A DNA stretch of 64,000 nt, taken from Myxococcaceae bacterium. Its GTDB lineage: Bacteria; Myxococcota; Myxococcia; Myxococcales; Myxococcaceae. The stretch lies in the NCBI GenBank assembly GCA_016793095.1, contig JAEUJQ010000032.1, positions 186,001-250,000 of the forward strand, given 5' to 3'. The notes below the pieces were generated by a model, which was not told the origin of the DNA, made no database searches, and worked only from the letters and a program-made list of their open reading frames with translations. Position numbers and translations under genes: made by a program. Below, in pieces: positions 38,050 to 45,439 of this stretch (position 1 is the first letter of the stretch; each line of letters opens with the position of its first letter).

Positions 38050-40731
38050 TCACTGACACAGCTGGGGCAGGTCCCGCACCGGGCTGAAGATGGTGTCGAC
38101 GCGCTGGATCTCGCAGGCGGTGAACCCGGACGTCCCGGTGATGAGATCGACGAGCACCGCGCCCGCCGCCCCGCCGCCGCCACCGCCACCCGCCTCGTAG
38201 AGGCCGCTGTTCTCGGAGTCGAGGTAGCTGGTGCCGGGCAGGCCAGCTGACGGGTTGCCGTACATCGCGCCCCCGCTGCCGCCGTTGCCGCCGTTGAACG
38301 AGCCTCCAGCGCCGCCCGGCGCGCTGGTGAACCCGGGAATGACGTTGCCGTCAGCCCCGTCACGGCCTCCACCGAAGAGGAAGCCGAGGTCGATGATGCC
38401 CGCGCCCTCGCCACCGCCGCCACCGTTCGAGAGGACGTACGAGCGCGTCGCGACGACGTACGGCGACTGAATGACGATGGTGCCGCCGCTGCCACCACCG
38501 CCGCCGCCGCCGGGGCCCTGCGTCATCGTGACCGAGCCGCCAGCGCCTGCGCCGCCAGCGCCATTGACGAGGATCTTCGAGTCGTCCATCAGGATGCCGA
38601 AGCGCGCGACGAGCTGAACGGCTCCACCGCCAGCGCCGCCGACCCCTCCCTGCGTGCCGCCGCCGTTGCCACCCGGACAGCCGCCGACGAGCGCGAAGCG
38701 CATGCGGGTCCTCGAGACTCCCGCCGTGCCGCCCGTCGTGAAGGTGCTGCCGCCGCCGCCCGGTGCGCCGGGCGAGTGGAAGCTGCCTGCGCCGCCAGCG
38801 CCAGCCGCGGTGTTGTTGTTGGTGCCGCCGTTCCCACCTGCCGAGGTGCCGCAGTTCAGGTTGCCTGCGGCACCGGGGATCGTGCCGCGCCCCGAGGCGT
38901 CGATGACTGCATTGCTCAGGATGATGGCGGTGTGGGCGAGCAGGATGACGGGCCGGTTGCCGGTAAGCCGCAGACTGCTGGTCGAGTTCATGTAGAACGA
39001 GTCGAAGACGAGCACCACGGCAGGCCCCGTCGGCGTCATCACCTCGGCCGTGAGTGGACGGGGCGTGGGCCAGGCCCCGCCAAAGGCGAGCGTCGTGCTG
39101 TTGAAGCTCGCCGCACCGTTGAGCTCCAGGATGCCGTTGGGCGGCCGCGGGAGCGTCGCGGGGTCGACGTTCGCAGGAGACCAGCCAAAGGCCATGCCGG
39201 GCGCGGGGCCGCACATGCCACCCGGCCGACAGACGTCTCCCGCGTTGGGGCAGGTCCCCGCGAAGTTCACCGAGTAGAGGCAGGTCTGATTCCACTGGCA
39301 CGAGCCGGTCGGCTGCCAGCACGGGCCCGAGGGAGGCGTGTTGCAGGTGAGCGTCGTCCCCGCGCGGCACTGCCCGGCCTGGCACGTCTCGTTGTACGTG
39401 CAGGTGTTGCGGTCGTTGCACGGCTGCGCGCCGCAGGACGGGTCTTCGCAATCGGTGAGGCCGTTGAGGTTGTCGTCGAGGCCGTTCCCGCAGTTGATCT
39501 CGGTGCACTGCCACGGGAGACACGGGCCACCGACCGCGCCGCCGTCTGGCAGCCGAGACAACCCGCCATCGGCGCCGGGCACGCCGATGATGCCGCCATC
39601 GGGGCCGATGATGACGGCCGGGCCTCCGTCAGGGTACGTCGGCACGCCGCCATCAGCCGACGCGGGCAGGCAGAGGCCAGCCGAGCACCGATAGCCACCA
39701 GGGCATGTCACCGTCGCGCACGCCGTCTCGACACAGGCGCCCGTCGAACCGCAGGCCTGTCCAGCGGGGCAGGGCCCACCGTTCGGCCCGCAGCTGGCCG
39801 GCACGCACGCGCCCTGCGCACACGCCAACCCCATGGGGCACACCACGCCGATGCAGCGAGCTTCGATACAGGCGTTGTTCACGCAGACCTGCGTGGGGCC
39901 GCAGCGCCCCTGACACGCCAGCGTGCCCGACCCGGCGCCGGAGCCGCCCGTGCCCGCGCCCGAGCCGCCCGTGCCTGCGCCGGAGCCGCCCGTGCCCGCG
40001 CCCGAGCCGCCCGTGCCTGCGCCCGAGCCGCCCGTGCCAGCGCCCGAACCACCACCCGTGCCCGCGCCGGAGCCGCCCGTGCCTGCACCGGAGCCACCCG
40101 TCCCCGCGCCGGAGCCACCCGTCCCCGCGCCGGAGCCACCCGTCCCCGCACCGGAAGAGCCCGCGCCTGCGCCCGAACCCGCCGAGCCGCCGCCAGTCGC
40201 CTGAGGCACCATGGAGGGACCGGGGCCCGTGCCGGGGCCGCCACCCGCGCCGCCTCGGTCGTAGCACTTGCCGTCTGCTGCGCACCGCTGGTCCCCAGCG
40301 CACGTCACGCCGAGGCACTTCTTCGGAATGCACTCCTGCGCGACGCAGACCTCGGCCTGGGTGCAGGTGTCGATCTCGCAGCTGCGCGTGTAGCAGCCTC
40401 CTCGAACGCAGGTGCCTCCGCCCGAACAGCTCTTCCCGACGCACTGCTCGTCGGTGCACGTCCCTCCTGCGCAGACCTGCCCCTCACCGCAGGTGCGGTT
40501 CGCGCACGCTCTCGCGTAGCAGCTCCCGCTCACGCAGGCCTGACCCTCGCCACAAGCCGTGTCGGGGCACGTCGGCTTCGGCACGCAGATCTTCGCGGGC
40601 CCGCAGATGTCCGTGCCGGAGCACTCACTGTCGAAGGTGCAGGGGGTGCCGGCCGGTGGACCGCCCCCACAGGTGCACGCAGCGAGGGACAGCGCGAAGG
40701 CACAGAGGACGATCGGAGCGGAGACTCGCAT
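38050..40731 (-). CDS. Giant cysteine- and glycine-rich surface lipoprotein
   Basis: 893 residues. The signal ends in the lipobox LSLAAC (Cys at about residue 18). Residues 18-170 are a series of disulfide-type repeats, C-x6-C or similar (DTACGEGQACVSGSCYARAC, CTQAEVCVAQECIPKKC). Residues about 180-267 are a 7-residue repeat GSGAGTG. Then follows another cysteine-rich block and, from about 525, a beta-helix-like region (SLRLTGNRPVILLAHTAIILS). A very glycine-rich tract extends almost to the end. The layout resembles large myxobacterial outer-membrane adhesins: disulfide modules, a flexible linker and a glycine-rich tip. Confidence 0.85.
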   Translation of the reverse strand: MRVSAPIVLCAFALSLAACTCGGGPPAGTPCTFDSECSGTDICGPAKICVPKPTCPDTACGEGQACVSGSCYARACANRTCGEGQVCAGGTCTDEQCVGKSCSGGGTCVRGGCYTRSCEIDTCTQAEVCVAQECIPKKCLGVTCAGDQRCAADGKCYDRGGAGGGPGTGPGPSMVPQATGGGSAGSGAGAGSSGAGTGGSGAGTGGSGAGTGGSGAGTGGSGAGTGGGSGAGTGGSGAGTGGSGAGTGGSGAGTGGSGAGTGGSGAGSGTLACQGRCGPTQVCVNNACIEARCIGVVCPMGLACAQGACVPASCGPNGGPCPAGQACGSTGACVETACATVTCPGGYRCSAGLCLPASADGGVPTYPDGGPAVIIGPDGGIIGVPGADGGLSRLPDGGAVGGPCLPWQCTEINCGNGLDDNLNGLTDCEDPSCGAQPCNDRNTCTYNETCQAGQCRAGTTLTCNTPPSGPCWQPTGSCQWNQTCLYSVNFAGTCPNAGDVCRPGGMCGPAPGMAFGWSPANVDPATLPRPPNGILELNGAASFNSTTLAFGGAWPTPRPLTAEVMTPTGPAVVLVFDSFYMNSTSSLRLTGNRPVILLAHTAIILSNAVIDASGRGTIPGAAGNLNCGTSAGGNGGTNNNTAAGAGGAGSFHSPGAPGGGGSTFTTGGTAGVSRTRMRFALVGGCPGGNGGGTQGGVGGAGGGAVQLVARFGILMDDSKILVNGAGGAGAGGSVTMTQGPGGGGGGGSGGTIVIQSPYVVATRSYVLSNGGGGGEGAGIIDLGFLFGGGRDGADGNVIPGFTSAPGGAGGSFNGGNGGSGGAMYGNPSAGLPGTSYLDSENSGLYEAGGGGGGGAAGAVLVDLITGTSGFTACEIQRVDTIFSPVRDLPQLCQ
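39930..40190. repeat. 21-bp coding repeats (GSGAGTG linker)
   Basis: About twelve tandem 21-bp units encode GSGAGTG on the minus strand in the surface lipoprotein. The units differ mostly at third codon positions, so the peptide repeat is more conserved than the DNA. The copy number may vary between strains. Confidence 0.9.
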
Positions 40732-40820
40732 CACAAACGCCGACTCTAGCCGCGACTGGAAACGATCAGGCAGTCTCCGGCCGGACGACCGATGGCATGT
40801 CGTCTGCTGTACGACACGAC

Positions 40821-41381
40821 TCAGTGCAGCAGCCATGGCCGGCGCAACAGCGCGACCACCTCACGGAGCGTCCACCTCGCGCGGCTCCCCATTGCCAGCT
40901 CACGCGCGACTGGCGAGGCCACCACCGCGACGCCCACGCGCCGGAAGTGAGAGACGGCCCGGTAGGCATGGAAGTCGTCGGTGACGAGCCAGGCGTCGGA
41001 CCAGGCGTGAGCACGGAGCAGCTCCGCCGAGCGCCGCGCGTTCTCGAAGGTGGAGCCGCTGGCCGGCTCGAGGACGCAGGCGGCCTCGGGGACTCCAGCC
41101 CCGATGGCGAGTCGCGCAGCCGCTGCCGCTTCGGACACCGGGGCCCCGCCGCCCGAGAAGAGCAGCCGCTCGCCGAGCCCCGCGCGGTAGAGGCCCACCG
41201 CGTGGGTCACGCGGGCGACGAGCGCCTCCGAGGGCGTGCCGTCGGGGAGCACCCGCGCGCCGAGCACGATGATGGCCTGCCGACGAACGGGCACGGCGCG
41301 GCGCCGGCCAAAGCGGTGGACGCGCACCGACAGGGCGGTCACCGACAGCGCGAGCGCCGACGCGAGGAGGACGGCGGTCAC
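40821..41381 (-). CDS. YdcF/DUF218-family membrane-anchored protein
   Basis: 186 residues from GTG at 41379-41381, overlapping the preceding stop by four bases. A single N-terminal hydrophobic helix (AVLLASALALSVTALSV) is followed by the DUF218 core AIIVLGARVLPDGTPSEALVARVTHAV. GERLLFSGGGAPVSEA, SGSTFENARRSAELL and DAWLVTDDFHAYRAVSHF are the family's conserved blocks. DUF218 proteins such as SanA/YdcF are linked to envelope integrity and vancomycin resistance; biochemical role is unproven. It is translationally coupled to the transglutaminase-like gene. Confidence 0.88.
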   Translation of the reverse strand: MTAVLLASALALSVTALSVRVHRFGRRRAVPVRRQAIIVLGARVLPDGTPSEALVARVTHAVGLYRAGLGERLLFSGGGAPVSEAAAAARLAIGAGVPEAACVLEPASGSTFENARRSAELLRAHAWSDAWLVTDDFHAYRAVSHFRRVGVAVVASPVARELAMGSRARWTLREVVALLRRPWLLH

Positions 41382-42310: not shown

Positions 42311-45300
42311 ATGGAGAGCCGCCGCACCCTCGCCGTCGCTGGCATCCTGGGAGGGCTGTCGACCGGGACGCTGGTCGGCCTGGTGCTGCTCGCGCTGACG
42401 GGCCAGCCCTCGACGGTGACGGCGTGGACGCTGCTCCTGCTGTCGTCGATCGCGAGCGTGACGGTGACGCTCTGGGTCGCGCTGTGGCAGGCGGTCTTGC
42501 GCCGGGCCGAGGCGCGGCGCGCCGAGGTGCTTCGCCTGGTAGCGGGCGATCTCACCTCGCTGCCCTCGACGAGCGAGGCGAGCGACCCCGAGCTGCAGCA
42601 GCTCGCCCTCTCTTTGCGGCGCGCCATCTGGCAGGTCCAGCGCGTCACCGCGAGCCTCCACCGCACCAGCCGTGACGTCGAGGGGCGGGCCCGTTCACTG
42701 CTCGAAGCGGCCCGCCGCCAGGGAGGCGCGGTCGATCGCAGCGAGAAGGCCGTCGAGTCGATGGGCGAATCGCTCGAGGGCGCCGGCAAGCGCATCGCGC
42801 AGCTCGAGACGTTTGCCCGCGAGACGACGGGCTCGCTGTCCGAGATGACCGAGAGCATCGAGCAGGTGGCGGCCACGCTGGGCAGCCTGAACGAGGTGGC
42901 GCTCAAGCTGGCCGAGCGCGCCGACGCCTCGAGCCACCGGGCCGCCACGGTGTCCACCGAGGGCGAGGCGCTGGTGCGGCTGTCCACCCAGACGCGCGAG
43001 GCGGTCGCCGCGGCCGAAGGCGCCATCAACGCCGTGCGGCGCCGCTCGGACGAGACGGGGGAGCTGGCGCGCGAGGTGACGACGATGGCCGAGCGGGGCG
43101 TCTCGCTCGTCAACGACAACCTGCGCGGCTTGCAGCGCATCGACGACACCGTGCGCCACGCCACCCGCCTGGTGGACGCGCTGGGCGCCTCGAGCACCGA
43201 GATCGGCCGCGTCGTCGACGTCATCCAGGAGATCGCCGATCAGACGAACCTGCTCGCGCTCAACGCGTCCATCATCGCGTCACAGGCCGGCGAGAGCGGC
43301 AAGGCCTTCACCGTGGTGGCCAGCGAGATCCGCAACCTGTCCGAGAAGACGGCGCGCTCGACGCGGGAGATCGCCCAGAAGGTGAAGGCGGTCCGCGACG
43401 GCACCCAGCGCGCGGTCGATCTGGTGAGCCGGGCGCGGGACGAGGCGGCCGCTGGCGTGACGCTCGGCGAGAAGGCAGCCCAGGCGCTCACCGACATCCG
43501 CGGCATCTCGACGCGATCGCTCGCCGCCGTCGAGGCCACGCGCGCTGAGACGCAGCGGCTCGAGCAGGAAGGGCAGCTCGTCGCGGAGTCGAGCCGGCAG
43601 ACGGCCGAGCGCGTCTCGCAGGTGGTGCGGCTGGCGCAGGAGCAGGCGCTGTGGGGCCGCGAGCTCGCCCGGCAGATGCACGAGATGGCGCGCACCGCGA
43701 AGGACGCCACCACGCGCGCGCAGCGGCAGGTGGAGGTGGGCCGCGAGCTGTCGGACTCGGTGCTGCGCCTCACCGCGGCCATCGACGAGATCCGCGCGGC
43801 GCACCTCGTCCTGACCCAGGGCGACTCCGCCATCGGTGAGGAGGTCGCCGAGGTCCGCGAAGACGCGCGCACCGTGGTGCGCATCGGCGACGCGCTCTCG
43901 CGGACCGTCGAGCAGTTGACCCACGAGGCGGAGACGCTCGATGGCGAGGTCTTCCGCTTCAAGCTGCCCCAGGCGCGCACCGGCGGCACCTTGTCCGTCG
44001 GGCTGCACCAGCCACTCGAGTGGGACCGTACCCGGGGCCTCGACCCGCTCTTCGTCATCCAGCTCCAGCTCGCCGAGGTGTCCGCGTCTCTCTACTCGAC
44101 GCTGGTGCGCCTCGAAGACGGCATGGTGGTGCCCGACCTCGCCGAGAGCTGGGAGTCGGACCCGACGGGGCGGCGCTATCGCTTCTCGTTGCGGCGGGGA
44201 GTGGTGTTCACCGACGGCGTGCAGCTCACCGCGACGCACGTGAAGGAGCACCTCGAGCGGCTGCTCGACCCCGCCAGCCGGGCGCCAGACGCGGCCCTCT
44301 TCAAGGACCTCGTGGGCGCGAAGGCGTTCCTCGCCAACGAAGCGAAGGGCGTCAGCGGCATCGAGGTGCTCGACCCGCACACCCTCGACATGAGGCTGGA
44401 GGAGCCGCGAGCCTTCTTCCTGCGCCTCCTGGCCCTGCCGTCGACGGGCATCACGCGCGTGGTGCAGGGCCGCGTCGTGGGCACCGGCCCCTTCCGCATC
44501 GACGACGCGTCGAGCTCGACCTCACTCGTGCTCGAGCGGAACCCTTCCTTCCACAAGCCCGGCCTGCCGCTGCTGGGGCGGGTGGAGTTCAAACAGCTCA
44601 CCGACCGACGAGCCGCCGTGGCCGCCTTCGCCGCGGGCGAGGTGCAGCTCGTGAGCAACCTGCACGCGAAGGACTTGACGGCCGCGGGCCTCGAGCCAAC
44701 CGACGCCTCGATGGTGAACACCCCCAACAGCTGGTTCCTCGGCTTCCACGCGCGGACCGCGCCCTACGACGACGTGCGGGTGCGCCGCGCCATCAGGGCC
44801 GGCCTCGACGTGCGCGCGGTCGTCGATGGCTTCCACCCGGGCGCCCGCGTCGCGCGCAGCCTCACGCCGCCCAACCTGCTGGAGGTGGACCGCATTCACG
44901 AGCCGCGCACTGATGTCACCCTCGCGCGCCGGCTGCTGTCGGAGGCAGGCCACGCGCGCCTGCGCATCACCCTGCCCTTCCCGCCCGACCGCGACACCCG
45001 GGACGAAGACCGCGTGCTCTTCGGTCCGCTCCTCGAGGCGGGGCTGGTCGAGCTCGACCACCAGCCGGTGCATGACGGCTTCTGGGACAAGGTGCGCGAG
45101 GGGCGCCTCGCCATCTTCCGCGGCAACTGGATCGCCGACGTCGCCGACCCCGACAACTTCCTGCACCTGCTGCTCAACTCGAAGGCGCAGAGCTACTACG
45201 GCCTCGGCTACCTCAACCCCGAGCTCGATCGGCTCACCGACGAGGCGCGTGTCACCATCGACCCCGGTCCGCGCGAGCAGCTCTACAAGAAGGCCGAGAC

Positions 45301-45439
45301 GCTCGTGCGCGAAGACTGCGTGCTGGTGCCGCTGTACCACGAGCGCTTCCACGCGGTGGCCACGCCCTCGGTGCAGGGGCTGCGGCTGCAGCAGACGCCA
45401 CCCCAGGTCCGCTACGAGGAGCTGTGGATCGCCTCCTGA
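42311..45439 (+). CDS. Methyl-accepting chemotaxis domain fused to a family-5 solute-binding protein
   Basis: 1042 residues from ATG at 42311. Two transmembrane helices lie near residues 7-30 and 37-60, joined by only about seven residues, so there is no periplasmic sensor. Residues 62-545 are a long coiled-coil receptor stalk with the CheA/CheW-binding hairpin tip IADQTNLLALNASIIASQAG near 307-326. From about residue 557 to the end follows a complete oligopeptide/nickel-type binding protein: GGTLSVGLHQPLEWD, LAESWESDPTGRRYRFSLRRG and SYYGLGYLNPELD near the end. If the helices insert normally the binding domain is cytoplasmic, unlike usual SBP_bac_5 proteins. It is probably a ligand sensor fed from inside the cell. 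Confidence 0.9.
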   Translation: MESRRTLAVAGILGGLSTGTLVGLVLLALTGQPSTVTAWTLLLLSSIASVTVTLWVALWQAVLRRAEARRAEVLRLVAGDLTSLPSTSEASDPELQQLALSLRRAIWQVQRVTASLHRTSRDVEGRARSLLEAARRQGGAVDRSEKAVESMGESLEGAGKRIAQLETFARETTGSLSEMTESIEQVAATLGSLNEVALKLAERADASSHRAATVSTEGEALVRLSTQTREAVAAAEGAINAVRRRSDETGELAREVTTMAERGVSLVNDNLRGLQRIDDTVRHATRLVDALGASSTEIGRVVDVIQEIADQTNLLALNASIIASQAGESGKAFTVVASEIRNLSEKTARSTREIAQKVKAVRDGTQRAVDLVSRARDEAAAGVTLGEKAAQALTDIRGISTRSLAAVEATRAETQRLEQEGQLVAESSRQTAERVSQVVRLAQEQALWGRELARQMHEMARTAKDATTRAQRQVEVGRELSDSVLRLTAAIDEIRAAHLVLTQGDSAIGEEVAEVREDARTVVRIGDALSRTVEQLTHEAETLDGEVFRFKLPQARTGGTLSVGLHQPLEWDRTRGLDPLFVIQLQLAEVSASLYSTLVRLEDGMVVPDLAESWESDPTGRRYRFSLRRGVVFTDGVQLTATHVKEHLERLLDPASRAPDAALFKDLVGAKAFLANEAKGVSGIEVLDPHTLDMRLEEPRAFFLRLLALPSTGITRVVQGRVVGTGPFRIDDASSSTSLVLERNPSFHKPGLPLLGRVEFKQLTDRRAAVAAFAAGEVQLVSNLHAKDLTAAGLEPTDASMVNTPNSWFLGFHARTAPYDDVRVRRAIRAGLDVRAVVDGFHPGARVARSLTPPNLLEVDRIHEPRTDVTLARRLLSEAGHARLRITLPFPPDRDTRDEDRVLFGPLLEAGLVELDHQPVHDGFWDKVREGRLAIFRGNWIADVADPDNFLHLLLNSKAQSYYGLGYLNPELDRLTDEARVTIDPGPREQLYKKAETLVREDCVLVPLYHERFHAVATPSVQGLRLQQTPPQVRYEELWIAS

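Follow-up and report, generated by a model that had tools for sequence, protein, structure and literature searches.

The 64,000-nucleotide stretch of Myxococcaceae DNA that we analysed (the window) carries a gene whose product is fairly likely to be an orphan McpK-type chemoreceptor that is anchored in the inner membrane and equipped with a cytoplasmic, peptide-sensing solute-binding protein (SBP). The MCP-SBP architecture has already been tabulated as McpK and is real and conserved. The gene is a single frame of 1042 amino acids that runs from the ATG at 42311 to its stop codon with 0 internal stops, and this start is backed by the aligned N-termini among relatives. A Pfam search of the protein placed MCPsignal (PF00015) at residues 281-399 with 108.5 bits (cut-off 34.6) and SBP_bac_5 (PF00496) at residues 606-960 with 199.3 bits (cut-off 32.4), with no other domain above its cut-off; in NCBIfam, OppA-like and MCP models match, none of them near its equivalog cut-off. 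The frame, the Pfam matches and hydropathy agree with the coordinates and the anatomy of a fused receptor given in the initial annotation of this DNA. The features are collected in Table 1.

Table 1. Features of the receptor gene and of its divergent neighbour, in positions of the window
Feature	Position	Strand	Basis
McpK-type chemoreceptor, whole gene, 1042 aa	42311..45439	+	ORF, translation, family conservation
Transmembrane hairpin, residues 6-63, two helices	42326..42499	+	Hydropathy, AF2 helices, charge pattern
HAMP-like stretch, residues ~66-110	42506..42640	+	BLASTP alignment to paralogue L001
MCP signalling coiled coil, residues 111-552	42641..43966	+	PF00015 at 281-399; AF2 helices to residue 547
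Fusion seam, residues 552/553, VFRFKL/PQARTGGTL	43964..43969	+	L001 alignment and L001 stop
Complete family-5 solute-binding protein domain, residues 553-1042	43967..45436	+	PF00496, AF2, VIA-align
Predicted ligand-site strip R937-G-N-W940-I-A-D943	45119..45139	+	Profile alignment to OppA chains; conservation counts
Divergent neighbour, 274 aa	41378..42202	-	tblastn synteny, alignment; start ~109 bp from receptor start

The hairpin tip of the MCP half, which in MCPs is the conserved site of CheA/CheW contact, lies around IADQTNLLALNASIIASQAGE at residues 308-328; its residues N318, I322 and Q325 are invariant in 28/28 relatives and E328 is found in 25/28. The seam was located by comparison with the closest MCP paralogue in the same genome (L001, contig C6, 694-705 aa), whose coiled coil is equal in length to that of the fusion. 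The BLASTP alignment runs from the second membrane helix to the seam (fusion residues 41-552), and residue 552 pairs with the last residue of the paralogue, with ...LDGEVFRFKL in the fusion opposite ...LRGEIRRFRV and a stop codon in L001. Because L001 stops at the equivalent of residue 552, the MCP half of the fusion is an entire MCP with its natural end, and the mature SBP start, PQARTGGTLSVG, comes immediately after it. As judged from these alignments, a whole MCP is joined at 552/553 to a mature SBP without a signal peptide. The two proteins part company in their sensors: the paralogue has its own extracytoplasmic domain and a HAMP and ends where the SBP would start, whereas the fusion has a bare hairpin and a HAMP-like remnant. 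Such an exact seam makes this a clear case of a receptor exchanging its sensor.

Hydropathy places the membrane helices at residues 6-31 and 34-63, and the full-length AF2 model has helices at 2-30 and 36-77. The loop between them, estimated from hydropathy and this weak model at about 5-8 residues and free of charged residues, fits the spacing of about seven residues that had been described for this receptor. The full-length model is weak (pLDDT 65, pTM 0.41), so it does not tell how the SBP is placed with respect to the coiled coil. The window protein has 2 Lys/Arg residues before helix 1, 0 in the loop and 5 after helix 2, the 28 relatives have a similar pattern, and read by the positive-inside rule the charges give an N-in/C-in arrangement in nearly all of the 28. 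No extra membrane segment was predicted by hydropathy in a consistent way, and neither a signal peptide nor a membrane helix separates the MCP part from the SBP; the latter starts at residue 553 behind the coiled coil with no hydrophobic segment there and is devoid of a lipobox. Since the charges are N-in/C-in, no extra membrane segment is consistently seen and the hairpin tip must meet CheA/CheW, the SBP is predicted to lie in the cytoplasm; these features support a cytoplasmic position for both ends of the protein, as had been proposed for the C-terminal domain. A weak hydrophobic stretch that hydropathy detects within the signalling helix of Myxococcus homologues may correspond to the extra (third) TMHMM helix listed for McpK of M. 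xanthus. No HAMP was matched by Pfam in the window protein; residues ~66-110 align by BLASTP with the HAMP of L001, in which Pfam does recognise the domain, and may represent a degenerate, HAMP-like remnant. The initial annotation is too sweeping in letting normal receptors as a whole contact a free periplasmic binding protein: this holds for only some chemoreceptors, most possess their own ligand-binding domain, and the L001 paralogue has an ordinary extracytoplasmic domain.

Modelled by AF2 with a 94-row alignment, residues 553-1042 reached a pLDDT of 96.3 and a pTM of 0.92, and by Foldseek and VIA-align 2 this model matches family-5 SBPs over its full length. The VIA-align Z values were 37.7 for GbpA, 37.0 for DppE, 36.9 for DppA, 36.6 for MppA and 35-36 for OppA, with a span of 34-38 for the OppA/DppA/MppA/GbpA set, and the top solved structure match has a Z of 37.7 over 461 residues. 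Taken with the PF00496 score, these values bear out the presence of a complete family-5 binding protein at the C-terminus. The window domain shares both the fold and the ligand-site anchor residues of the OppA/DppA/MppA/GbpA set and differs from it in having no signal peptide or lipobox, no adjacent ABC transporter genes and an MCP fused to it. In the profile alignment, R413-A-G-W416-C-A-D419 of OppA aligns to R937-G-N-W940-I-A-D943, and among 28 relatives R937 and W940 are each kept in 28/28 and D943 in 27/28. R937 is retained in 16/17 fusions versus 19/77 other SBPs, and W940 and D943 are common across all SBPs compared, fusions or not; the D/R/W residues, kept in many ordinary SBPs too, may be partly structural. 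In OppA, Asp419, the equivalent of D943, is the residue to which the peptide's alpha-amino group binds. Because the OppA-equivalent R/W/D residues are conserved, the comparison favours a peptide- or amino-acid-like ligand for the SBP domain. Several fusion-specific conserved columns are found in the last 20 residues (1025-1039).

McpK of M. xanthus (MXAN_6456, ABF92748) is an orphan receptor of 1048 aa in Table 1 of Moine et al. 2014 (PMC3945109), where it is given an MCP domain at 246-463, a C-terminal domain of the bacterial extracellular solute-binding type, 3 membrane helices by TMHMM and no HAMP by Pfam. The same source assigns it to class 44H together with DifA, and the Dif system is suggested there on class grounds. 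In the portions of that paper available to us, the mutants stated to lack defects are those of McpG, I, J, L and Mcp4; McpK is not among them, nor is it among the named S-motility mutants. Because McpK appears in neither list, an mcpK mutant likely has a developmental defect, which those portions leave unstated. The same portions contained no discussion of the topology, seam, fold, ligand site or distribution of McpK; our literature search returned nothing specific on other MCP-SBP fusions, and the tag MXAN_6456 was unmentioned beyond this paper in the literature searched. The window protein shares with McpK its orphan status, a short membrane anchor, a C-terminal SBP, a length of about 1048 aa and the lack of a HAMP recognised by Pfam, and differs in having 2 membrane helices rather than the 3 of the published table. 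Family members in the genus that we took as Myxococcus (g20) are 1047-1048 aa long against 1048 for the published McpK and have the same architecture. McpK therefore very probably has its orthologue, in the genus of the window's genome, in the window protein.

A search of genomes for the same architecture, a check put forward in the initial annotation, identified a fusion homologue in 88/96 genomes of the window's family (E <= 1e-80) and in 4/99 genomes of the phylum outside the family, all four Myxococcota: G155 and G152 from the same order, and G163 and G164 from the same class. Identity over both domains was 45% for G155, 39% for G152 and 35% for G163. In most of the 88 family genomes one unbroken frame spans both domains, and several others are cut at contig ends. 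Four large genomes of genus g3 (G002, G003, G005 and G006) have two copies of the fusion gene each. A sample of about 1,240 genomes from four further phyla, with 2-3 candidates scored per genome, yielded no orthologue at E <= 1e-85; because so few candidates were scored, weak or unrelated MCP-SBP fusions could escape this sample. A scan of genome contigs with the SBP alignment, using generic patterns, returned ordinary SBPs, with the MCP tip motif in none of 80 loci among the matches listed, and so it is no measure of the distribution of the fusion outside the phylum. Related pairs gave NG86 dN/dS values of 0.02-0.18 over the MCP part and 0.10-0.24 over the SBP part, which indicates purifying selection on both domains. 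Identity to the window protein averaged 63% over the MCP part, 62% over the SBP part and 39% over the hairpin, which is the least conserved. In the tree the fusions' SBP domains group together in a single clade (support 100) that is separate from free SBPs and from the SBPs of Chloroflexi regulators, and this is consistent with one origin.

The receptor gene is an orphan. The Pfam-scanned neighbours in the 36.8-50 kb region of the window are SDR, DUF218, HNH, SGL-like and Dicty_CTDC repeat proteins or have no match, and no che or ABC transporter (permease/ATPase) genes were found by Pfam in this region. A cognate CheA/CheW cluster, which the initial annotation had suggested looking for, is not nearby; the same genome has seven MCPs, and at least 4 CheA/CheW loci, or CheA-type systems, lie elsewhere in it. 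The divergent 274-aa neighbour was retained near the receptor, within the same family, in 12/13 of the relatives compared (tblastn). It is probably exported, has no family match in Pfam or NCBIfam, and shows conserved CL..A, PHAWVR and DP motifs in its alignment; in appearance it is transglutaminase-like. A 928-aa cysteine-rich protein at 38053-40836 (-), in which SGAGTGG-type repeats form a long tract and Pfam finds no match, is probably lipoprotein-like.

The explanation that adjacent genes were merged by an assembly or sequencing error can be practically discounted. We looked for frame interruption by genome comparison and found one near the seam in G058 (genus g20; L178, G058:C4:214401-218200), which could be a mutation or an assembly error; most relatives are unbroken across both domains, the single frame being read through in most of the 88 family genomes and in more distant relatives, and the members of one Myxococcus-like genus exactly match the published McpK length of 1048 aa. 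An inverted topology, which the initial annotation had raised as an alternative and in which the SBP and the MCP part would both be periplasmic, or an exported one, with the SBP taken out by some other route, would suit family-5 SBPs, which normally act outside, as well as the odd helix number (3) predicted for McpK of M. xanthus in the table of PMC3945109. We considered and rejected it as very improbable, because there are two helices with positive charges at both ends and none between, the region around the seam has neither a signal peptide nor a membrane helix, and the conserved hairpin tip requires cytoplasmic CheA/CheW.

A different question is whether a cytoplasmic SBP would still sense a small molecule, or would be a module for docking or spacing that serves, for instance, a protein partner, adaptation enzymes or placement of the array near the membrane. 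The CheR/CheB tethers of Tar/Tsr sit at the C-terminal position and the SBP occupies their place, no ligand is known for the domain, and the fusion-specific conserved columns at 1025-1039 could serve contacts. We nonetheless hold a docking role to be unlikely, if less so than the topological alternative, because the AF2 model retains the entire SBP fold, the R-x-x-W-x-x-D strip is nearly invariant in 28 relatives and the domain is under clear purifying selection.

The reading that we prefer, that of a receptor with a cytoplasmic peptide sensor, starts from the computed fusion, seam, fold, conservation, selection and N-in/C-in features; we infer that the SBP is cytoplasmic in the living cell, that it binds a ligand and of which class, that it passes on a signal and that CheA/CheW are the partners. 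What is left of the periplasmic sensor of the receptor would be a bare membrane hairpin, and the mature portion of a binding protein of the Opp/Dpp type is attached where the MCP coiled coil naturally ends at its C-terminus. Because the C-terminal helix of an MCP returns towards the membrane, the SBP should hang in the cytoplasm near the HAMP-like stretch and the adaptation region. There the flytrap would bind a peptide or amino-acid-like ligand and close, and closure would alter the packing of the coiled coil and thereby change the activity of CheA bound at the hairpin tip. We give about even chances to the broader proposal of an inward-sensing chemoreceptor class, present in nearly all of one myxobacterial family, in which an OppA-like cytoplasmic flytrap on a bare membrane anchor reads the intracellular peptide or amino-acid pool and signals to a chemosensory kinase, possibly linking nutrition to motility or development. 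Motility and fruiting of myxobacteria depend on nutrient state. If the SBP is a working sensor, an internal solute is measured with a part that normally serves nutrient import outside, the sensor is placed after and not before the signalling domain, and one of many orphan myxobacterial receptors gains a defined, testable input.

A precedent for a cytoplasmic SBP_bac_5 sensor is provided by SgrR of E. coli and DsvR of V. cholerae, in which, as in the window protein, a C-terminal SBP_bac_5, presumably the ligand sensor, stands on a cytoplasmic regulator (PMC13060122). These regulators are soluble and have an N-terminal HTH output, whereas the window protein is membrane-anchored with an MCP output; an SgrR-type N-terminal HTH is absent from it by Pfam, which matches MCPsignal and SBP_bac_5 only. 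Chloroflexi regulators with BTAD and/or a Ser/Thr protein kinase, AAA_16, TPR and a C-terminal SBP_bac_5 (L094:2323-6255, L111:2502-6464, L114:2565-6452, L097:1908-6491 and L119:868-4767) likewise carry the SBP at the C-terminus of a cytoplasmic-type regulator, but they differ from the window fusion in their separate SBP clade and their output domains. In the same genome as the window, a ligand-gated ion channel is joined to a C-terminal SBP_bac_5 at L011:1129-3534 (-) (G000:C13) and at L012:370-2730 (+) (G000:C74), the SBP_bac_5 scoring 114 and 109 bits; the channel part matches NCBIfam LGIC_1/LIC below cut-off and Pfam Neur_chan_memb weakly. Since the C-terminus of the channel should be periplasmic, these two are a second kind of SBP5 sensor fusion, in this case with the SBP probably outside. 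Two further combinations were seen, SBP_bac_5 joined to CARDB and Peptidase_MA_2 in a member of the Dehalococcoidales (L086:3570-7526) and SBP_bac_5 joined to PPC and cupredoxin-like domains in a member of the Planctomycetaceae (L083:2520-5819).
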